Shown in pieces: positions 24,022 through 35,566 of a stretch of 38,502 nt of DNA. Each line of letters starts with the position of its first letter. Position 1 is the stretch's first letter. The notes beneath the pieces are model-generated. The model was not told the origin of the DNA and ran no database searches. It saw only the letters and a program-made list of their open reading frames with translations. Source of the stretch: Crocinitomix sp. GTDB lineage: Bacteria; Bacteroidota; Bacteroidia; Flavobacteriales_D; Crocinitomicaceae. A program made the position numbers and the translations under genes. The DNA is taken from the NCBI GenBank assembly GCA_030836155.1, contig JAURQI010000090.1, forward strand, positions 1-38,502, read 5' to 3'.

Positions 24022-26427
24022 TTAGATTCTTCCAGTAATCGCTTCGGTAACGTTGATGATATGATCACCAACTTTCTCACATGACGAGAATAAGTTGTTG
24101 AATGTCATACCACTTTCCATGTTAAAATCTGAGCTTTTCAAGTTCTCAAGATGTTCTTCTCGCATCTCATCGCGCTTTTTATTGATTGCGTTTTCGGCTG
24201 CTTTTGCCGAATCAATCGTTACAGCTTCCCACTCTGCATTTAAATTATCGACCATGACTGCAAATGCTTTATCAACCAACTCAAACATTTCGGTTAAACT
24301 TGTTCTTTGCTCAGGAGAGAACCAAATTTTATGCTCTTCTTTTCGCTCGATAGCCTTTGATATTTGATAGAAGATATCACCAATGCGCTCCAAATCGTTT
24401 ACAATGCTATTCATTGCTCTAACTCGCTCTGCGGTTGACTCAGACATTTCGCCTTCAGAAACCTTTGCTAAATAAGAAGCCACTTCTACTTCCACCCGAT
24501 CCGTAATCTCTTCGTATTTTTCTATTTTCTCGTGGAGCTTATTCTTTTTCTTTTTGTTTTGTTCCGTCAATAAATCTTGAGTAAACCCGGACATTCGGCT
24601 AGTGATTTCGCCAAATTTAGCAACCTCCTTTTTAGCTTCAAAGATCGACATTTCCGGAGTGCCCATCATGCCTGAACCGATATAATCCAGATGGAACTCT
24701 TCATCTGCTCCTCCTCTTGATTTGACAGTCTTTTCAGCAATTCTTACCAGCCAAGGCACAAAAGGAAGTAATAGTAATACGTTGATGGTATTAAATGATG
24801 AGTGAAAGATTGCTAAAGCTAAGTTTGCTGATCCCCCGTCGCTGTATGGATCTCCTTCAATGAATAACGCTATCCCTTTAAGAATGAAAGGGAAGAGTAA
24901 AATCGCCCATGCTACACCGATAATGTTAAATAGCGAGTGTATGCGAGCAGATCGTTTTGCGTGCACATTACCGATTAATGAAGCCAATTCTGCTGTAATC
25001 GTAGTACCAATATTTTCACCCAAAATCATAGCAGAAGCCACTTCAAATGGAATAACACCCCCTGCAACCATCGTCATCGTCAATGCCATTGCAGCCGATG
25101 ATGACTGAATTACAACTGTTACTAAAGCCCCAAGGAAAACGAACATTAAGGGACCATACCATACATCTTTAAAGTCAATGAAAAACTGAACAATCGAAGA
25201 ATCAGTGCCTAATGATGGTACAGCGTCTTTCAATGCTCCTAATCCCATAAATAAAAGGGCAAATCCAATGATGACGCTCGCCCAAGTTTTCGCTTTCCCT
25301 TTTGTAAAGAACAATAATGGTGCTCCAAAAGCAATGAAAATGTATGCGTAAGAAGATAAACTTACTTTGAATCCGAAGATCAAGATTAACCAAGCCGTTA
25401 ATGTCGTACCAATATTGGCACCCATCATTACACCTGCTGATTGTCTTAATGTAAGTAGTCCTGCATTTACAAAACTTACAGTCATCACGGTAGTTACCGA
25501 AGACGATTGAACAATTGATGTGATTCCGAATCCTGTCAACACACCTGAAACACGATTTGATGTAATTGACCCTAACATATTTCTTAGACGAGATCCGGCA
25601 GCTTTTTGAAGACCTTCACTCATAATCTTCATACCAAAGATAAACATACCTAAGGCTCCGATTAGAACTAAAAACCTAAAAATACCCCATGCACGTTCGG
25701 TTTCGAATTTCCCTTTTTTGGACCAGATTGTTTTATTATCAAGGTTCAAACCAATTTTATAAACATACTTCTCTCCACCAACAAGCTCATCAATTTTCTT
25801 TTTAACCTTGTTGATTGGAATGTCTTCTTCAACTATCCATGGAGATTTTTCTGGAAATTTCTTGTTCTGTTTTTCTCCAATCTTTGTGTTGTATTTGAGT
25901 GAGTAACTTGCTTCAGGATAAACAGAGAGAATTTTGTTAATCTGATCTAACTCGATTGCCCACATAAACTCAACAGCCTCTTCTTTACCTTTTGCAGAAT
26001 TATTCTTAAAGATGGATTCAGAATAAGTGTTAAAATGAAGCGTGCCTTCGGTAATGTTTTCGCCGTTCGAAAAAGCACATGCAAATACTGTGTTTTCTGA
26101 TAAGTTGCTTATAGTTATTTCAGTTTTGTCGGCATGGATTGTTATTGTCTTCCAATCATCTGTTCCTACTTCACAATAATTAAAAGTAGTTGCTTTTCCG
26201 TCCAGTGATTCCCAAGAAATCGTTGATTTACCCGTTTCAAACGGCTTTAAGGTCAATGAATCAACATCGTTTTCAAAACTGTATTCAAATCCAGCAGGTG
26301 TAATAAGCGTTGGTACGCTTAAGACAGCAGTGCTTGTATCTATAACTTCGTTGTTAACTTCTTGCTGAGCACTCATCGAGGTTATAGTGATGCTTAGCAG
26401 GCTGAGAATACCTATAATTTTTTTCAT
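24022..26427 (-). CDS. Na/Pi cotransporter family protein with C-terminal PhoU-like domain and N-terminal exported extension
   Basis: GMFIFGMKIMSEGLQKAAGSRLRNMLGSITSNRVSGVLTGFGITSIVQSSSVTTVMTVSFVNAGLL...GANIGTTLTAW; second QSSSAAMALTMTMVAGG repeat; PhoU-like C-term. Start ATG 26427 (MKKIIGILSLLSITITSMSA); the track start 26466 lies upstream of the -7 element. Confidence 0.92.
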   Translation of the reverse strand: MKKIIGILSLLSITITSMSAQQEVNNEVIDTSTAVLSVPTLITPAGFEYSFENDVDSLTLKPFETGKSTISWESLDGKATTFNYCEVGTDDWKTITIHADKTEITISNLSENTVFACAFSNGENITEGTLHFNTYSESIFKNNSAKGKEEAVEFMWAIELDQINKILSVYPEASYSLKYNTKIGEKQNKKFPEKSPWIVEEDIPINKVKKKIDELVGGEKYVYKIGLNLDNKTIWSKKGKFETERAWGIFRFLVLIGALGMFIFGMKIMSEGLQKAAGSRLRNMLGSITSNRVSGVLTGFGITSIVQSSSVTTVMTVSFVNAGLLTLRQSAGVMMGANIGTTLTAWLILIFGFKVSLSSYAYIFIAFGAPLLFFTKGKAKTWASVIIGFALLFMGLGALKDAVPSLGTDSSIVQFFIDFKDVWYGPLMFVFLGALVTVVIQSSSAAMALTMTMVAGGVIPFEVASAMILGENIGTTITAELASLIGNVHAKRSARIHSLFNIIGVAWAILLFPFILKGIALFIEGDPYSDGGSANLALAIFHSSFNTINVLLLLPFVPWLVRIAEKTVKSRGGADEEFHLDYIGSGMMGTPEMSIFEAKKEVAKFGEITSRMSGFTQDLLTEQNKKKKNKLHEKIEKYEEITDRVEVEVASYLAKVSEGEMSESTAERVRAMNSIVNDLERIGDIFYQISKAIERKEEHKIWFSPEQRTSLTEMFELVDKAFAVMVDNLNAEWEAVTIDSAKAAENAINKKRDEMREEHLENLKSSDFNMESGMTFNNLFSSCEKVGDHIINVTEAITGRI

Positions 26428-26449
26428 TTTAATATGTAAAGAATTTGGG

Positions 26450-26457
26450 CAAAAGTA
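26450..26457 (-). promoter_or_regulatory. Bacteroidota -7 element TACTTTTG (minus) for the Na/Pi cotransporter
   Basis: + strand CAAAAGTA. Confidence 0.6.
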
Positions 26458-26489
26458 GGTTTTCATTCCAGTATGGATTCGGTTTCAAT

Positions 26490-26506
26490 GTTAAGGTTAT
26501 GTTAAA
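26490..26506 (-). promoter_or_regulatory. candidate Pho-type box: two TTAACA half-sites 11 bp apart
   Basis: Minus strand TTAACATAACC-TTAACATTG; + strand GTTAA at 26490 and 26501. Confidence 0.5.
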
Positions 26507-26613
26507 AAAATAGGGTTAAAAATTATTTCATCCTGGATAACGAACTGTTTATTCATTTGTCTAAACCCTTATTTATATTGGTTTTGCATGACTGTGAAAT
26601 GCCTAATGTTAAA

Positions 26614-26641
26614 GTTAAGAAAAGGTTAAGTATAAGTTATG
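26614..26641. promoter_or_regulatory. three GTTAAG-like units at exact 11-bp spacing upstream of the porin
   Basis: GTTAAG 26614, GTTAAG 26625, GTTATG 26636. Confidence 0.45.
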
Positions 26642-26738: not shown

Positions 26739-27980
26739 ATGAATAAGATCATTTCTCTAGTCGTAATTGCGTTTTCATTGAACACAGCAATGGGGCAGAT
26801 CAGTACGGATAGCTTTGGTAAAGGCATAAATGTAATTGGTAAAGATTCATCTTACACAATGAAGTTTGGTGTTCGTTTTCAGTCACTTTACATGGCTGAT
26901 TGGAATGTACGGGATGATGATTTCCAATACGTTGAAGATTTATCTTCGAATTTTTTGATCCGTAGATCACGATTTAAATTTAATGGATATGCCTTTACAC
27001 CAAAATTGAAATATAAAATGGAGTTCGGTCTGACAAATAGAGACATAGGTGGGGGAATTGATGCCGAGCATAATTTTGCTCCAAGATTTATTCTAGATGC
27101 ATTTATTGATTGGAATTTCTTTGGAAATTTTTCGATTAAGGCCGGTCAGGCTAAGTTGCCTGGCAATAGAGAGCGAGTGATCTCCTCGGGGAACATGCAA
27201 CTTGTAGATCGATCACGATTGAATAGTCGTTATAATATTGATCGTGATATGGGTGTTCAACTTAAGCATCATTTTACATTAGGAAGTCAGTTCTTAGTAA
27301 GAGAGGTTGTAGCTTTTACGCAAGGAGAGGGGAGAAATATAACAGCAAATAATATCGGTGGATATGACTATACATTCAGATTGGAAATGTTACCTTTTGG
27401 AAAGTTTCAGAAAAAGGGAGATTATGTAGCTTCTGCTATTTACCGCGAAGAAAAACCCAAATTAGCCCTTGGTTTTACCTATGACATCAACGAGCGAGCA
27501 CCTCGAGAACGAGGACAGAACGGTAGTTTTATATACAATGAGGATGGATCACATGCACAAGGCAAAACGTTGAACACCATTTTTGCAGATCTAATGTTTA
27601 AGTACAAAGGATTAAACATTATGATCGAGTATGCAAACAAAATGGTGGATGGAGATGATCCTAATGTTTATGACAAGGATGATGAGTCAATCGTAGTTGG
27701 TACGTACTACGTTGGAACAGGTATTAATGCGCAAGCAGGATGGATGTTTAAAAACAATGTTGAATTGACCGGGAGATACACGCAGATAACTCCTCAAGTA
27801 GGTGTAAGCAACAACGAAACGGAATACACGCTTGGACTTTCGAAGTTCTTTGTAGGACATAAATTGAAGGTTCAAACAGATATTAGCTATCGTCAAAGAG
27901 GGTTTGCAGGTGATATTACGCCGAACGCTGGTAGAGATGATAAGTTGTATTATCGCCTTCAATTCGATATCCATTTTTAA
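26739..27980 (+). CDS. porin (phosphate-selective porin O/P-like)
   Basis: Signal peptide; MKFGVRFQSLYMADWNVRDDDFQYVEDLSSNFLIRRSRFKFNGYAFTPKLKYKMEFGLTNRD...DAFIDWNFFGNFSIKAGQAKLPGNRERVISSGNMQLVDRS; typical OprO/P-type barrel. Confidence 0.82.
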   Translation: MNKIISLVVIAFSLNTAMGQISTDSFGKGINVIGKDSSYTMKFGVRFQSLYMADWNVRDDDFQYVEDLSSNFLIRRSRFKFNGYAFTPKLKYKMEFGLTNRDIGGGIDAEHNFAPRFILDAFIDWNFFGNFSIKAGQAKLPGNRERVISSGNMQLVDRSRLNSRYNIDRDMGVQLKHHFTLGSQFLVREVVAFTQGEGRNITANNIGGYDYTFRLEMLPFGKFQKKGDYVASAIYREEKPKLALGFTYDINERAPRERGQNGSFIYNEDGSHAQGKTLNTIFADLMFKYKGLNIMIEYANKMVDGDDPNVYDKDDESIVVGTYYVGTGINAQAGWMFKNNVELTGRYTQITPQVGVSNNETEYTLGLSKFFVGHKLKVQTDISYRQRGFAGDITPNAGRDDKLYYRLQFDIHF

Positions 27981-27987
27981 ATAGAAA

Positions 27988-28003
27988 TTAACGTTAGTTT
28001 AAC
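27988..28003 (+). promoter_or_regulatory. candidate Pho-type box: two TTAAC half-sites 11 bp apart upstream of chrA
   Basis: TTAACGTTAGT-TTAACC (27988, 27999); last half-site ends 22 nt before the first base of TAATTTTG (28025-28032). Confidence 0.5.
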
Positions 28004-28024
28004 CAATGTTATAAATCTTCCCTA

Positions 28025-28032
28025 TAATTTTG
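28025..28032 (+). promoter_or_regulatory. Bacteroidota -7 element TAATTTTG for chrA
   Basis: TAnnTTTG exact match. Confidence 0.6.
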
Positions 28033-28053: not shown

Positions 28054-29196
28054 ATGACACAAAGGGAAAAACTGATTGAAGTAGCGTCTGTATTTTTTAA
28101 ACTAGGTTGTTTTGCCTTTGGAGGCCCTGCAGCTCACATTGCTATGATGGAGGAAGAGGTAGTAACCAAAAGAAAGTGGATGGATCGCCAGCACTTTCTG
28201 GATCTAATGGGAGCTACCAATCTAATTCCAGGACCTAATTCTACTGAAATGACGATGCATTGTGGACATGAACGAGCGGGAATTCCAGGTCTTTTCATAG
28301 CTGGAATATGTTTCATTTTTCCAGCTGTATTTGTAACAGGTACATTAGCCTATCTCTACATCACTTATGGTCAATTACCGGATGTCGCAGGTTTTGTCTA
28401 TGGGATCAAGCCGGCAGTGTTAGCAATTATAGCTTCGGCCATCTATAAGTTGGGAAAAAAAGCACTTAAAAATGCTGAATTAGGAGCCTTGGGAGTGCTT
28501 GTTATCGTTGCTTGTTATTATGGTGTAAATGAAATCGTTGCACTATTGGCTGCTGGTTTGCTTAGTGTATTATATTATCAGTTGAAGAATAAGTTTACTG
28601 CTAAGTCTGATACAAATGTTAAATCAATCATACCCCTGTTACTTGCTCAAGCACCGGTAATTTCGAAGATAAGTTTGTCATCATGGACTGTTTTTTGGAC
28701 CTTTCTAAAGGTAGGATCGGTATTATATGGTAGTGGATATGTTTTATTCGCATATCTCGACGCAGAATTGGTGGGAAGAGGATGGTTGACAAGGACAGAA
28801 TTGATAGATGCAATTGCAGTAGGTCAATTCACCCCAGGTCCTGTGCTTTCAACTGCTACTTTTATTGGGTACCAATTAACGGGGTTCTGGGGTGCAATTG
28901 CGGCAACAGCAGGTATTTTCCTGCCATCTTTTCTATTTGTTTGGATATTAAACCCACTAATTCCAAAAATGAGAAAATCTGCCTTGCTCAGAAATTTTTT
29001 GGACGCTGTAAATATTGCTGCTCTTGGAGTTATGTTATTTGTACTGTATCAAATGGGATATGAAACATTGAATGACTGGAAAACAATATTGATAGCAGGA
29101 CTTTCTTTCTTCGTTGTCTTCGTACTTAAGAAGACAAATCCAATCTGGATTATTCTGGGTGGAGGTATCTTGGGGTATTTTCTACTCCCATTGTAA
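28054..29196 (+). CDS. chrA: ChrA-family (chromate) transporter, two-domain form
   Basis: FFKLGCFAFGGPAAHIAMMEEEVVTKRKWMDRQHFLDLMGATNLIPGPNSTEMTMHCGH and second half FLKVGSVLYGSGYVLFAYLDAELVGRGWLTRTELIDAIAVGQFTPGPVLSTATFIGY. Confidence 0.93.
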   Translation: MTQREKLIEVASVFFKLGCFAFGGPAAHIAMMEEEVVTKRKWMDRQHFLDLMGATNLIPGPNSTEMTMHCGHERAGIPGLFIAGICFIFPAVFVTGTLAYLYITYGQLPDVAGFVYGIKPAVLAIIASAIYKLGKKALKNAELGALGVLVIVACYYGVNEIVALLAAGLLSVLYYQLKNKFTAKSDTNVKSIIPLLLAQAPVISKISLSSWTVFWTFLKVGSVLYGSGYVLFAYLDAELVGRGWLTRTELIDAIAVGQFTPGPVLSTATFIGYQLTGFWGAIAATAGIFLPSFLFVWILNPLIPKMRKSALLRNFLDAVNIAALGVMLFVLYQMGYETLNDWKTILIAGLSFFVVFVLKKTNPIWIILGGGILGYFLLPL

Positions 29197-29335: not shown

Positions 29336-30016
29336 ATGAGTCATTCAATTCTTGTAATCGATGATGAACAGGATATTCGGATCCTGATCAGGTATAATCT
29401 TGAAAAGGAAGGGTATATGGTTGCCGAAGCTGAAAACGGAATGGAGGGAATTGAATTGGCTAAAAAAAACATTCCAGATCTTATTTTATTGGATGTGATG
29501 ATGCCCGGATTGGATGGTATCGCGACATGTGAAAAATTAAGAGATATTCCAGCGCTTCAGAATACAATGGTTTGTTTTTTAACGGCTCGAGGAGAAGATT
29601 ATTCTCAAATTGCGGGATTTGATGCAGGTGCTGACGATTATATCACCAAACCAATAAAACCGAAATTATTGGTTAGTCGGATAGCGGCGGTATTGAGACG
29701 TCAAAATAAATTAGCTACAAAGAAACAAGATCAATTAGAAGCTAAGCAATCAATAGTGGTAGATAGAGAGCGCTATTTAATTTCGAAAGATGGTCAGGAG
29801 ATGATATTACCGCGAAAGGAATTTGAATTACTTGCGCTCCTTATGTCTAAGCCTGGAAAAGTATTCCATCGCGATGCGATTATGAGTAGTGTATGGGGCA
29901 CAGACGTTGTTGTAGGTGACCGAACAATTGATGTTCACATTCGAAAATTAAGAGAAAAAATTGGGGACAAACATATTGTTACCGTGAAAGGGGTAGGATA
30001 TAAATTTCAGACGTAG
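29336..30016 (+). CDS. OmpR/PhoB-family response regulator (RR1)
   Basis: ILVIDDEQDIRILIRYNLEKEGY, DLILLDVMMPGLDG, GADDYITKPI, winged-helix C-term DRTIDVHIRKLREKIGDKHIVTVKGVGYKF. Confidence 0.93.
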   Translation: MSHSILVIDDEQDIRILIRYNLEKEGYMVAEAENGMEGIELAKKNIPDLILLDVMMPGLDGIATCEKLRDIPALQNTMVCFLTARGEDYSQIAGFDAGADDYITKPIKPKLLVSRIAAVLRRQNKLATKKQDQLEAKQSIVVDRERYLISKDGQEMILPRKEFELLALLMSKPGKVFHRDAIMSSVWGTDVVVGDRTIDVHIRKLREKIGDKHIVTVKGVGYKFQT

Positions 30017-30121: not shown

Positions 30122-31474
30122 TTAAAGTGCTTTCGTCCAACCGGCAGTCCAATCAGATCCTGACTGAACAGCACCGATGTAAGACGCAGCATCAAACCAT
30201 GATCCCCATGCCGTTGGGTCACCAGCGCCAGTTGCAGTCGTTCCAACATATCCTGAAAGGAATCCAACTAAAGAACCATCAGTAGCTGAAGTGTTTCCGT
30301 TTGCAACATCTTCGAAGTTAGCGATACCCGTTGCAGCGTCTCCAGCAGATGTTGTGAAAACGAATGGGTTAACATTGTCAATGATGCTGTTCATCATAGT
30401 CAATGAACCACCGTCCATGTTTCCTAAAGTTACGTCGTGCTCAACTTGCGCTCCTCTTTTAGGGAATCCAGTTACGACGAAGTTCATTAAGTTACCTTTA
30501 GTTCCTTCTCTTAATTTCAAACCTTGGTTTGAATCATCACCATCGTTAACACCAATTAAAGTAACGTTAGCAATGTTCGGGTTAGAATAAGGTGCAGCTT
30601 CGTTGTTATCACCGTTGTTATCTGCTTCGATACCACGGTCACCACCAACAGCGTCTTGGTTTACAACCCAGAATTGTCCATTTCCTGACCATCCGTGTGT
30701 CCAGTCAAATGAATCATCTTGGTTACCAGAAGAGATCGCATATTTTAAAGAAACAGTTCCACCGAAGAACTCAAATCCATCATCAGATCCTTTGTATGCT
30801 TGTAAGTGGTGTAGTGTTGTTCCTGATCCACATCCGTTGAATGAGAATCCGTTCAATTCGTTATCTGTACCTAAGATTTTTCCAGCGTACTCAACACGAA
30901 CATAACACATAGAACCAGAGTTGTCAGCAGCATTGTCACCACCATAGATACCTGTACCACCTTCACCCTCAGCACTCGCACCAGTGTTGATTGGAGCGTA
31001 TCCGTTTATGATAATTCCTCCCCAAGAACCTGGAGTTGGAGCGTCAGCGATCGGAGTAAAAACGATTGGTTCATCAGCCGTCCCACAAGCTTCGATTTTA
31101 CCTCCTTGGGATATAGAGAGGAAAGGAGTAGTCCCATCATTTGCAGCATATACAGTAACTCCAGGCTCAATTGTTAAAGTAGCTCCTGAACCAACGAATA
31201 CACCACCAGAGATCATCCAGTTACCAGCAGCAGTGATCGTACGATCTGCATCAATAGTACCAGTGATTTGGTTGTACGTTTCACTTCCAATAGTTACTTC
31301 TGTATACCACGTATCGGTATCAGGTAATTCACACGAACCGTCATCTTTTTTAGCTTCAGCATCATAGTTAGTTGCTAATGGATCAGTACATCCTTTTTTC
31401 TTACAAGCAAGAACTACTGCCAGTAGTGCGCCTGCTAAAACCATCATCTTGACAGTACTTTTTTGAATTTTCAT
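30122..31474 (-). CDS. surface lipoprotein, predicted repetitive beta-helix-like
   Basis: Lipobox LAVVLAC at N-term; GCTDPLATNYDAEAKKDDGSC motif; GVFVGSGATLTIEPGVTVYAANDGTTPFLSISQGGKIEACGTADEPIVFTP; next to a TonB-dependent receptor. Confidence 0.72.
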   Translation of the reverse strand: MKIQKSTVKMMVLAGALLAVVLACKKKGCTDPLATNYDAEAKKDDGSCELPDTDTWYTEVTIGSETYNQITGTIDADRTITAAGNWMISGGVFVGSGATLTIEPGVTVYAANDGTTPFLSISQGGKIEACGTADEPIVFTPIADAPTPGSWGGIIINGYAPINTGASAEGEGGTGIYGGDNAADNSGSMCYVRVEYAGKILGTDNELNGFSFNGCGSGTTLHHLQAYKGSDDGFEFFGGTVSLKYAISSGNQDDSFDWTHGWSGNGQFWVVNQDAVGGDRGIEADNNGDNNEAAPYSNPNIANVTLIGVNDGDDSNQGLKLREGTKGNLMNFVVTGFPKRGAQVEHDVTLGNMDGGSLTMMNSIIDNVNPFVFTTSAGDAATGIANFEDVANGNTSATDGSLVGFLSGYVGTTATGAGDPTAWGSWFDAASYIGAVQSGSDWTAGWTKAL

Positions 31475-31531
31475 TTCTCTTTTCTTTTTTCAGATTTCGA
31501 TACAAAGATGTAGCTTATGTTTCGCTAACCA

Positions 31532-31591
31532 ATTACCTGCTTATTACGCTTAGGTTAATTAATCGTTAAAGTGGTTTAACATTAAGTTAAT
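31532..31591 (-). promoter_or_regulatory. candidate Pho-type box upstream of the lipoprotein: half-sites at 11-bp register
   Basis: Minus-strand units ATTAA, GTTAA, TTAAC, TTAAC, GTAAT, GTAAT starting (+ coordinate of low end) at 31587, 31576, 31565, 31554, 31543, 31532; last ends 22 nt before near-consensus -7 CATCTTTG (+31503-31510). Confidence 0.5.
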
Positions 31592-31703: not shown

Positions 31704-34700
31704 TTATTCAGCAGCTTCTGTTTCGGCTTCAGCCATTTCAGTTGGCTTTTTCTTTTTCTTAGCAACAGGGATGTTGTAAGAGAATGACAAGCTAAAGTCG
31801 ATACCTCTTTGGAAGCTTGAAACGTTTAATGTTTCACCCGCATTTACCATGTCTTGCTGCACGATATTGATTGTAGGGTTTAAGATATTCTTTGCTTTAA
31901 ATCCGAAACTATATGTATCATTAAATGTAATACTACTTACAAAATTGAGCGAGTTAACGGGTTGCTCATACTGATCACCAATTCCGTTAGATCCAACTGA
32001 GAATAAACGGGGTCCGAATACATTATAAGAGGCAGCAAATAAAACTGACTTCTTATTGTTATCGTCATCAGAACCAAAGTCATTTTTATAACTTAAATCA
32101 AAGTTGATTAGGTATGGAGAAGCTCCTTCTAGTGGACGGATTGAATTGGTGTTAATTGCACCACCATCCGTTGTGTCAATGATAACTGAAGTGTACATAT
32201 AAGTGGCGTTGATGGCAACACTGAATTGATTTAAGATGCTCGTATCTCTTTTCAAAGAATCACTCACCAAGAAAGCTAGGCTCTTCATCATTTCAATTTC
32301 TGCTCCAATAACGTTTGCCGATTGCGCGTTGGCAAAGCTCATCAATTGTCCACTGGCAGTTGCACGCATCGTTTGCTCAATTGGACGATCTAAATATTTA
32401 TAGAAACCACCAACTGTGAACATTTCACCTGGTTTTCCATAACGCTCATAACGGAAGTCAGCATTGTAGTTTGTACCGTTATCCAATTCTGGATTACCCT
32501 GGGCTTTCATACCTGCGAAGTACAATACATACTGGAATGGTGCAACCTCATTGAATTTAGGACGCGTTAATGTTTTACTCGCTACAAATCGGAATACATC
32601 TTTATCTGTTGCATTGAGACGTGTTATTAAGCTCGGTAAGATGTCGTTGCTCAAGATGATGTTCTTTTCGTATTCAGAAGGCGTTTGTTGGTTTCTGTTC
32701 TCAACGCTTTGGTATCCACTTTCGAAACGAACGCCCGGGATGATGTGGAACTTGTTAAAACGCATTTGAATATCTGAGTAGAACCCAGTTACTTGCTGTT
32801 GCGCTGCGTAAGATGAACCGAAGTTCACTACTTCATCAATGCTAAACTGACCTAATTCGTGACGATCAGAATTTAAGAATTCGTTCATATTATAAATGTC
32901 AACATTGTTTCCAACCTCATCTGCTAAGCTGTTTAGGATATAGTTGTATTGTTTGTAATTAAACGCTCTTTTTTTTGATTTGTAATCAGCACCAACTTTT
33001 AGAATAATTTTCTCAGCAGGTAGACTATCTTTTTGATACGAATTCCACTGCTCTCCATATTTTAAGACGTAACTAGCATTTACTTTTCCAGCAATCTCAC
33101 TTTCACGTAAAGCACTGTGGAAAATATGATTTTCATTACGATCGATAAAGTTAAAGGCATAGCTGTTAGTTGCATTCCTGTTTTCTTCATCATAAAATGC
33201 AACAAACTGTTTTCTATCGGGTTCTTGACTTCCTGTTATGCTGTACGATCCTCTCCAGTCTATAGTTAATCGAGACAGAGATGAATCTTCGCTAAAAGGT
33301 AAAAATTCATGTGTACCAATTATTTGATTGACAGAGATAAAATTCTGTTGATAAGTGTTTCTTCGTGAATAGACATCTCTTGGGTAGTCAAAGTGTGAAC
33401 CCCAAGACTCTCTTACTTCGTCACTTGAATTGTTGACAAATAAAGAATTAAAGGAGATGTTGTTTTTTGGATTCAATCTGAAATACAAGTTGAACAATCC
33501 GGTTGTAGCCGTTTCTCTTCTGTACTTATCAAAATCGTAGTTCAAACGTTCTTCACTTTGTGCGTTGATGATTTTAATCTGACCGTTTTCATAGCGATAG
33601 CTGTGATCGTGTGACAGCAAAGTCAAGAATCCAATCCCTTTCGATCGATCTTTGGATTTAGTTGTAGGATAAAAATTTCCCGCTGTTAAAGAAAAGTTAG
33701 AATTAGGTAAAGCGCTTACAAGCTTGGTACCGAAATTATCGTTGAAGCCAGTTGGGTTACCTTCTTTTGAACTGTAGATCGAGTTGGGATAAATATTGTT
33801 CACAGCACTAAGTGTCCCTGTTTTCGAATTGGCAATAACATACTCAGGAATTTGACGCGTTCCGTTATCGAATCCAAAATAATCGTAATGACCACCTTCG
33901 TAGGTTCTGAAATCATTAAAAGTAGTTTGCGTGTTATATCCACTACCAATTCCAATTTTTAAAGTTGGTTGACTATAAAAGCTTCTTGTAGAAACGTTAA
34001 ATGCGCCTCCAGAGAAATCACCGTATAATTCTGAAGACATTACTTTACTGACTTCAATAGAACTCACGATATCAGTAGGGAAAATACTTAAAGGAGCCAC
34101 TCTAAAATCAGGGTGTGGAGAAGGGATTGGTAATCCGTTCATGTAAGCCACGTTATATCGATCGCCCAAACCACGAACGTAAAGTGAAGAACCAACCGTT
34201 GACATACCTGTCATTGTTTTAGCAGCTCCACCTAAATCACTTTGCCCCGTTTTTTCGATCATATTACGTGATTTTTGCGTGGTCACCTTCGTATCATTTT
34301 TGACGTCTTGCACAACTGCCACTTCTGACTTACCATTATCTAACGTCCTTTTTGCAGTAATTACAACTTCTTCAAGTTGTCCCGCACCACTCATCATTAC
34401 ATTGTGCGTAATCTTTTGGCCAGAGACAATGTTTAAAATAACAGTATCTGCCTTTAGTTGCAAGGTGCGATTAGTAAAAACTAAAGTGTTTTCACCTTCC
34501 GGTAAATTGATAGAATACGCACCAAAAAAATCCGTTTTTACTTTTGGTGTCATTTTGCCATTTTTTAGAACGGATACAGTTGTCAGAGGCACCGTCTCTT
34601 CTCCATCACCTAGATTTTGCATCACCACACCTCCAACTGTTCCAGTCTGCGCATGTGAGATATTCATAATCCCAAGAAAAGTCATAAGTAATAGAATCTT

Positions 34701-34712
34701 AGTTGCTTTCAT
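31704..34712 (-). CDS. TonB-dependent outer-membrane receptor with carboxypeptidase-like N-terminal domain
   Basis: Signal peptide MKATKILLLMTFLGIMNISHA; GTVGGVVMQ...VKTDFFGAYSINLPEG; plug GLGDRYNVAYMNGLPIPSP; SRPKFNEVAPF. Start ATG 34712 rather than 34733, which lies next to the -7 element. Confidence 0.92.
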   Translation of the reverse strand: MKATKILLLMTFLGIMNISHAQTGTVGGVVMQNLGDGEETVPLTTVSVLKNGKMTPKVKTDFFGAYSINLPEGENTLVFTNRTLQLKADTVILNIVSGQKITHNVMMSGAGQLEEVVITAKRTLDNGKSEVAVVQDVKNDTKVTTQKSRNMIEKTGQSDLGGAAKTMTGMSTVGSSLYVRGLGDRYNVAYMNGLPIPSPHPDFRVAPLSIFPTDIVSSIEVSKVMSSELYGDFSGGAFNVSTRSFYSQPTLKIGIGSGYNTQTTFNDFRTYEGGHYDYFGFDNGTRQIPEYVIANSKTGTLSAVNNIYPNSIYSSKEGNPTGFNDNFGTKLVSALPNSNFSLTAGNFYPTTKSKDRSKGIGFLTLLSHDHSYRYENGQIKIINAQSEERLNYDFDKYRRETATTGLFNLYFRLNPKNNISFNSLFVNNSSDEVRESWGSHFDYPRDVYSRRNTYQQNFISVNQIIGTHEFLPFSEDSSLSRLTIDWRGSYSITGSQEPDRKQFVAFYDEENRNATNSYAFNFIDRNENHIFHSALRESEIAGKVNASYVLKYGEQWNSYQKDSLPAEKIILKVGADYKSKKRAFNYKQYNYILNSLADEVGNNVDIYNMNEFLNSDRHELGQFSIDEVVNFGSSYAAQQQVTGFYSDIQMRFNKFHIIPGVRFESGYQSVENRNQQTPSEYEKNIILSNDILPSLITRLNATDKDVFRFVASKTLTRPKFNEVAPFQYVLYFAGMKAQGNPELDNGTNYNADFRYERYGKPGEMFTVGGFYKYLDRPIEQTMRATASGQLMSFANAQSANVIGAEIEMMKSLAFLVSDSLKRDTSILNQFSVAINATYMYTSVIIDTTDGGAINTNSIRPLEGASPYLINFDLSYKNDFGSDDDNNKKSVLFAASYNVFGPRLFSVGSNGIGDQYEQPVNSLNFVSSITFNDTYSFGFKAKNILNPTINIVQQDMVNAGETLNVSSFQRGIDFSLSFSYNIPVAKKKKKPTEMAEAETEAAE

Positions 34713-34735: not shown

Positions 34736-34743
34736 CAAATGTA
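34736..34743 (-). promoter_or_regulatory. Bacteroidota -7 element TACATTTG (minus) for the TonB-dependent receptor
   Basis: + strand CAAATGTA. Confidence 0.55.
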
Positions 34744-34776: not shown

Positions 34777-34858
34777 GTTATGAATTCATTAATTGTCCTT
34801 AACAATGGATTAACATTAAGTTCATTTTATGTTAAAAGAAACGTAACTATGAATTAAC
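34777..34858. promoter_or_regulatory. 11-bp-periodic TTAAC half-site array (candidate multi-site Pho box) in the divergent TBDT/RR2 intergenic region
   Basis: Units at 34777 GTTAT, 34788 ATTAA, 34799 TTAAC, 34810 TTAAC, 34821 TTCAT, 34832 TTAAA, 34843 GTAAC, 34854 TTAAC; exact 11-bp steps. Confidence 0.6.
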
Positions 34859-34879: not shown

Positions 34880-34887
34880 TATTTTTG
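34880..34887 (+). promoter_or_regulatory. Bacteroidota -7 element TATTTTTG for response regulator 2
   Basis: TAnnTTTG exact; first base 22 nt after the last base of the array (34858), the same distance as at chrA. Confidence 0.6.
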
Positions 34888-34900
34888 TAAAAAGAATAAT

Positions 34901-35566
34901 TTGGAGCAGACTGTATTAGTCGTCGAGGACGATGCGGATATTAGAGAATTATTAAGGTACAACCTTCAAAAGGCTGGGTTAACTGTTCATGCGGTTGGAA
35001 CTGGCCGTGAGGTAATGAATTTGTGTAAGAAAATTAGACCAGACCTTGTGATTCTCGATGTTATGTTGCCAGATATTGATGGGATAGAGGTGTGCGAATT
35101 TCTGAGAAAAGATGCACAATTAACAGGCGCGTATATCCTTTTTCTCTCAGCGAGGGGAGAAGATTATTCACAGGTAGCGGGTTATCGTGCAGGAGGAGAT
35201 GACTACATTGTTAAACCGGTAAGTATTAAAGTCCTTATGCACAAGGTGCGTGCTGCATTGTCAAGAATAAGCCATTATCATATGCATGATGCCTCTCCTG
35301 AAAAAGTTGTTTTGAATACTGATCGCTTTTCAATAAGAAAAAACGGAAAAGAAAGTATTATTCCCAAAAAGGAGTTCGAGCTACTGTCTTATCTCATGAG
35401 TTCTCCAGATAAGGTTTTTAGACGCGAAGAGATCTTAGCGAATGTTTGGGGCCATTCGAATATCAATGACCGTACAATTGACGTGCATGTTCGTAAACTG
35501 AGAGAGCGTTTCGGTTCGAGTATTATCCGCACCGTAAAAGGTGTAGGTTATCGTTATATGGGTTAG
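34901..35566 (+). CDS. OmpR/PhoB-family response regulator (RR2), likely TTG start
   Basis: (M)EQTVLVVEDDADIRELLRYNLQKAGL, DLVILDVMLPDIDGIEVCEFLRKD, GGDDYIVKPV, DRTIDVHVRKLRERFGSSIIRTVKGVGYRYMG. The track start 34868 lies upstream of the -7 element. Confidence 0.9.
   Translation: MEQTVLVVEDDADIRELLRYNLQKAGLTVHAVGTGREVMNLCKKIRPDLVILDVMLPDIDGIEVCEFLRKDAQLTGAYILFLSARGEDYSQVAGYRAGGDDYIVKPVSIKVLMHKVRAALSRISHYHMHDASPEKVVLNTDRFSIRKNGKESIIPKKEFELLSYLMSSPDKVFRREEILANVWGHSNINDRTIDVHVRKLRERFGSSIIRTVKGVGYRYMG

Follow-up and report, generated by a model that had tools for sequence, protein, structure and literature searches.

An 11-bp TTAAC-type repeat between divergent TonB-dependent receptor and PhoB-type regulator genes of Crocinitomix sp. 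is very probably a Pho box

The PhoP boxes of Bacillus subtilis have a TTAACA-like repeat consensus. They are built of 11-nt repeats, and the Pho box is already known as a type of element (PMC4415409). In Flavobacterium johnsoniae, the PhoBR operon responded to Pi depletion with log2 changes of 3.06 for PhoB, 8.02 for the TonB-dependent receptor (TBDT; Fjoh_0545), and 9.91 for the lipoprotein FII (Fjoh_0546), while OprP was not induced (PMC8115612). PhoP from Riemerella anatipestifer, upregulated in phosphate starvation according to its authors, bound in vitro to TTTAACA sites, to its own promoter, and to a TBDT promoter (PMC9603813). PhoB from Bacteroides fragilis binds the pstC promoter, for which the accessible text of that study defines no site (PMC3547664). 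Although the phosphate-starvation genes of Flavobacterium have been well measured, no operator for the phylum was found in the literature searched, nor any published Bacteroidota Pho box with the repeat and register described here; since most subscription journals lay outside this literature, this is weak evidence of absence.

We analyzed a stretch of 38,502 nucleotides from Crocinitomix sp. (the window), which contains a cluster encoding a Na/Pi cotransporter with a PhoU domain, a porin of the O/P family, a CHR-family transporter, the response regulator RR1, a lipoprotein, a TBDT, and the OmpR/PhoB-type regulator RR2 (Table 1). The genes for TBDT and RR2 are divergent, and the array lies between them. 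Read directly, it consists of eight 11-mers starting at 34777, 34788, 34799, 34810, 34821, 34832, 34843, and 34854, matching letter for letter the positions given in an earlier note on this DNA. The exact 11-bp spacing of TTAAC-type 5-mers reported there was also upheld: when TTAAC was scored at an 11-bp period in the 188-bp TBDT/RR2 intergenic region and in 1000 dinucleotide shuffles of it, the best score was reached in none of the shuffles for 3, 4, 6, or 8 units (p<0.001). Only period 11 stood out; the 6-unit score was 26, and that of every other period from 6 to 15 was 18 or less. The array is real. AT-richness (the window has 39% GC) and the self-complementarity of TTAA, which inflates apparent two-strand registers, could in principle produce phased TTAA steps by chance or as a DNA-shape effect with no specific binder. 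This explanation is extremely improbable, being contradicted by the shuffles and the period scan, by the conservation of units amid diverged spacers, by the fixed distance from the -7 box, and by the absence of arrays from the RR1, M14 peptidase, and control promoters (see below).

Table 1. Features of the phosphate-related gene cluster and its repeat arrays (positions in the window)
Feature	Position	Strand	Basis or detail
Na/Pi cotransporter, C-terminal PhoU domain	24022..26466	minus	Pfam PF02690 and PF01895
Arrays, Na/Pi cotransporter-porin intergenic region	26490..26640	minus	ATAAC 26640, TTAAC 26629, TTAAC 26618; TTAAC 26505, TTAAC 26494
Phosphate-selective porin O/P family	26739..27980	plus	Pfam PF07396
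CHR transporter promoter	27977..28032	plus	TTAAA 27977, TTAAC 27988, TTAAC 27999, then TAATTTTG at 28025
CHR-family (chromate-type) transporter	28054..29196	plus	Pfam PF02417, TIGR00937
RR1, PhoB-type response regulator	29336..30016	plus	Best NCBIfam match PhoB
Lipoprotein	30122..31474	minus	Class-wide partner of TBDT; profile and synteny with phoB-TBDT
Lipoprotein promoter	31506..31569	minus	TTAAC 31569, TTAAC 31558, GTAAT 31547, GTAAT 31536, then CATCTTTG at 31510
TonB-dependent receptor	31704..34712	minus	Pfam Plug; neighbourhood as in TBDT-lipoprotein pairs across the class
-7 box of TBDT promoter, TACATTTG	34736..34743	minus	TAnnTTTG at the same place in 8 genomes
TBDT-proximal half-site pair	34777..34792	minus	TTAAT (34792-34788), N6, ATAAC (34781-34777)
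Middle pair, units 3 and 4, TTAAC-N6-TTAAC	34799..34814	plus	Fixed distance from TBDT promoter
Unit 5, TTCAT	34821..34825	plus	Degenerate; in phase in the window, unconserved
RR2-proximal triple TTAAA / GTAAC / TTAAC	34832..34858	plus	Sequence and orthologue register
-7 box of RR2 promoter, TATTTTTG	34880..34887	plus	Sequence; TAnnTTTG type
RR2, OmpR/PhoB-family response regulator, TTG start	34901..35566	plus	Pfam Response_reg, Trans_reg_C

The earlier note had interpreted the repeat as an operator of an OmpR/PhoB-family regulator serving both divergent genes, including that of the regulator itself. The phasing behind this idea proved to be conserved in orthologous intergenic regions and well beyond, although the layout was incorrect in its details. 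On the plus strand, units 1 (GTTAT) and 2 (ATTAA) each share only 2 of the 5 bases of TTAAC and were rejected as plus-strand half-sites; their minus-strand readings, ATAAC and TTAAT, match at 4 of 5 bases each and are both conserved. Because the minus strand gives the better reading of the units on the TBDT side (TTAAY-N6-ATAAC), the operator is described not as one tandem array of eight units, but as three groups: a pair on the minus strand pointing toward TBDT, a pair on the plus strand, and, adjoining the RR2 promoter, a plus-strand triple. Counted upstream from the TBDT -7 box, the members of the minus-strand pair, TTAAT and ATAAC, start at 49 and 38 nt; counted upstream from the RR2 -7 box, those of the triple start at 48, 37, and 26 nt, with the last unit overlapping the -33 region. 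The TBDT units thus differ by one base in spacing from the RR2 series, and the minus-strand register is 27+11n rather than 26+11n (in each of the 8 genomes compared, the two units lie 38 and 49 nt from the TBDT -7 box). The register of 34765+11n previously proposed for this strand was rejected: it is largely the palindromic image of TTAA in the plus-strand units, and the conserved units of the minus strand are offset from it by one base.

The divergent TBDT/RR2 region was common to 8 genomes, including the window, that represent three genera of the family. Alignment of such regions had been proposed as a check on the repeat, with loss of the phasing counting against it; the phasing was kept. 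Across the orthologous intergenic regions (7-9 relatives), the units were conserved and the spacers had diverged. In a gapless alignment of ten sequences anchored at the RR2 -7 box (a divergent TBDT is missing from two), conservation at the units at 26, 37, and 48 was 0.83, and 0.93 for the TAA core, versus 0.54 at the remaining positions between -48 and -1. This register was common to 9 of the 10 RR2 promoters, the remaining one (locus L071) being displaced by one base. When anchored at the TBDT -7 box, conservation was 0.96 at the units at 38 and 49, 0.95 at the TTAA steps of the middle pair, and 0.65 elsewhere: TTAAY-N6-ATAAY occurred at the same distance in all 8 divergent regions, and the middle pair was found in all 8 genomes as (T/A)TAAYATT-NNN-TTAAY. 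Unit 5, on the other hand, was replaced by TTGAG, AGATT, AAATT, and similar sequences.

Arrays were also found before other genes of the cluster: in the cotransporter/porin intergenic region and at the lipoprotein and CHR transporter promoters. The last unit started exactly 26 nt before the -7 box at the RR2, CHR transporter, and lipoprotein promoters. Two features of Pho boxes, 11-bp direct repeats and a fixed promoter position (26+11n nt from the -7 box) covering the -33/-35 element, were therefore both present, together with recurrence before phosphate-acquisition genes of the same genome. In relatives, the cotransporter/porin region carries TTAAC-N6-TTAAC 48 and 37 nt before TAnnTTTG. The presence of a CHR-family transporter within a phosphate cluster is a separate observation; its promoter has a perfect TTAAC-N6-TTAAC at 37/26 nt from the -7 box, as do those of two relatives (loci L070 and L073). 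By shuffles, no array was detected at the promoter of RR1 (p 0.49 for 3 units) or at that of an M14 peptidase in the window.

A search for TTAAC-N6-TTAAC-N6-TTAAC with up to 2 mismatches gave 31 matches in the 3.19-Mb genome. Three were the array itself, and 4 of the remaining 28 fell in the same 8.3-kb cluster versus 0.07 expected (P about 1e-6), one of the four being inside the TBDT gene. Genome-wide, the patterns were not in excess over reversed controls, leaving a large regulon unsupported. Since there was no such excess, and since the promoter of PhoX, located elsewhere in the genome, carries no array, any regulon should be small. The PhoR promoter also had none. The intergenic matches checked outside the window precede genes for a CBM96-like protein, DUF2480, a TPR protein, and DUF2214.

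The best NCBIfam match of both RR1 and RR2 was PhoB. Because their scores were below the equivalog cut-offs (TIGR02154: 213 bits for RR1 and 187 for RR2 vs 296; NF053854: 212 and 169 vs 270), we refer to them as PhoB-type only. Both consist of a receiver and a winged-helix output domain, as in PhoB, and share with Flavobacterium PhoB the phosphoacceptor Asp, a Lys, and the recognition helix RTIDVHxRKLRE. No PhoR was found in the cluster: the nearest match was a PhoR-like kinase alone on another contig (G000:C35:6346-7374; loci L145 and L159), 47% identical to a PhoR-like kinase of a relative. It is thus unlinked to RR1 and RR2, while many relatives keep phoB and phoR together. Neither a PstS-type binding protein nor a PhoA-type phosphatase was found in the genome (94% complete); the same search for PstS was positive in 13 of 14 control genomes. 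Sensing may involve the PhoU domain to which the Na/Pi cotransporter is fused.

The division of labour between the two regulators may be unequal. RR2 could be a diverged, competing paralogue rather than an activator, with RR1 as the true PhoB that fills the arrays; RR2, under RR1 control and translated from a non-ATG start, would then act back on these arrays, perhaps even in an unphosphorylated state. An array at the promoter of RR2 and none at that of RR1, nearly identical recognition helices, the non-ATG starts in same-genus copies, and the position of RR2 in a separate long-branch clade, within which the window's copy is fast evolving, are consistent with this alternative, while retention of the phosphoacceptor Asp and Lys by RR2 argues against it, as does its place next to TBDT, held in relatives such as L080 by phoB of a phoB-phoR pair. 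We regard it as a serious but tentative possibility. It keeps the reading of the region as a Pho box and changes only the roles of the regulators, and the probabilities of the two accordingly overlap.

Alternatively, the array might be the operator of an OmpR-family regulator for another signal (ArcA-like redox or RprY-like), unrelated to phosphate. PhoB is not the only regulator associated with 11-bp repeats of the TTAAC type (an ArcA-like character was noted for the Riemerella motif; PMC9603813), the genome encodes further OmpR-family regulators, and RR1 and RR2 fall short of the PhoB equivalog cut-offs, as given above. However, the promoters with arrays serve the cotransporter-PhoU/porin region, TBDT, and the lipoprotein, and the F. 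johnsoniae relatives of the latter two are specific to Pi starvation, being uninduced by Fe or N limitation (PMC8115612). Together with PhoB as the best family match of both regulators and the class-wide co-location with phoB-phoR, this makes an unrelated signal unlikely.

By its profile, the lipoprotein, a candidate counterpart of F. johnsoniae FII, was found in 150 of the 197 genomes of the class. In many of the loci compared it adjoins TBDT, often with a phoB-phoR pair, and in many Flavobacteriaceae phoB-phoR is divergent from TBDT-lipoprotein. The register of 26/37/48, set in advance, was tested against shuffles on promoters outside the family of the window: scores were 8.38 vs 4.43 for the lipoprotein (n=16, z=9.1), 5.97 vs 4.56 for phoB (n=38, z=5.0), and 4.68 vs 4.32 for control genes of the same loci (n=210, z 3.0; loci L149-L186), with z-values that overstate the independent evidence, the sequences being related by descent. 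The small excess in control genes may come from other array-bearing genes in these clusters, hinting at further members of the regulon. In a scan of periods 7-15 across the upstream regions of the lipoprotein, RR2, Na/Pi cotransporter, and TBDT, only 11 was raised. The array was weak or absent in some members of the class. F. limi, F. hibernum, and F. cupreum, congeners of F. johnsoniae, which was itself absent from these loci, showed the phoB / TBDT-lipoprotein order and an 11-bp array before TBDT: ATAAC-N6-CTAAC or GTAAC-N6-TTTAC, at 37, 26, and 15 nt. This register was obtained by reading individual sequences, as a strict -7 pattern was found in few TBDT promoters of named Flavobacteriaceae.

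These results suggested that the region is very probably a Pho box, i.e., an operator on which a PhoB-type response regulator acts, in a form particular to Bacteroidota. In the mechanism that we propose, phosphate limitation would lead a PhoR-type kinase to phosphorylate RR1 and/or RR2, which would then fill the units cooperatively, each 11-bp unit (one turn of DNA) binding one DNA-binding domain, head to tail; the core of the unit is taken as TTAAC, with WTAAY or GTAAT as looser forms close to the promoter. Upstream of RR2, the three plus-strand units would end over the -33 region, at a fixed distance from the -7 box, and a bound activator could thereby replace a poor -33 element and recruit sigma (class II activation), and RR2 would autoregulate. 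By analogy with F. psychrophilum, in which the TAnnTTTG box is located at -12 to -5 (PMC9723704), transcription of RR2 would start near 34892, nine nt before the TTG codon, and the last unit would occupy -38 to -34, over the -33 region. PhoB acts on pho boxes with this geometry in class II activation. TBDT would likewise be activated, rather than repressed, through the minus-strand pair, backed by the middle plus-strand pair, and the nearby lipoprotein, transporter, and porin promoters would belong to the same regulon. As a side observation, RR2 starts with TTG or GTG in same-genus copies (34901 in the window; L068, L070, L072, L073, L074, and L076), and the leader is predicted to be about nine nt long; such conserved weak initiation may limit the amount of RR2.

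A broader proposal, to which we give an even chance, is that TTAAC-core 11-bp units at 26+11n nt from TAnnTTTG are a so far undescribed Pho operator used throughout Bacteroidia, doubled here in opposite polarities to serve both an importer of the outer membrane and a diverged second PhoB. No PstS was detected in this organism, where the PhoU-Na/Pi cotransporter may report phosphate to the unlinked PhoR. Given a consensus whose register to the promoter is exact, phosphate regulons could be predicted in any Bacteroidia genome and put to direct mutational tests.

Among described systems, the F. johnsoniae PhoBR operon (PUSIV) resembles the window in clustering PhoB, TBDT, an FII-type lipoprotein, and OprP; in contrast, no operator is described there (PMC8115612), and the window has its PhoR elsewhere and a second PhoB-type regulator. 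The PhoP sites of Riemerella, which belongs to the same taxonomic order as Flavobacterium, share the TTAACA core and the placement at its own and a TBDT promoter, but were reported as an ArcA-like motif, and no 11-bp register or distance from a -7 box was found stated (PMC9603813). The PhoP boxes of B. subtilis have a near-identical core, an 11-bp period, and repeated units; they differ in belonging to another phylum and to promoters of another sigma factor, and no pst operon was seen in the genome of the window (no PstS found). Similar to the array, the pho box of E. coli PhoB consists of 11-bp direct repeats upstream of phosphate genes, replaces a poor upstream element, and is subject to autoregulation (PMC4415409). 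The operator of the window differs from it in a core of TTAAC instead of CTGTCAT, in runs of at least 3 units, and in being tied to TAnnTTTG at 26+11n nt.
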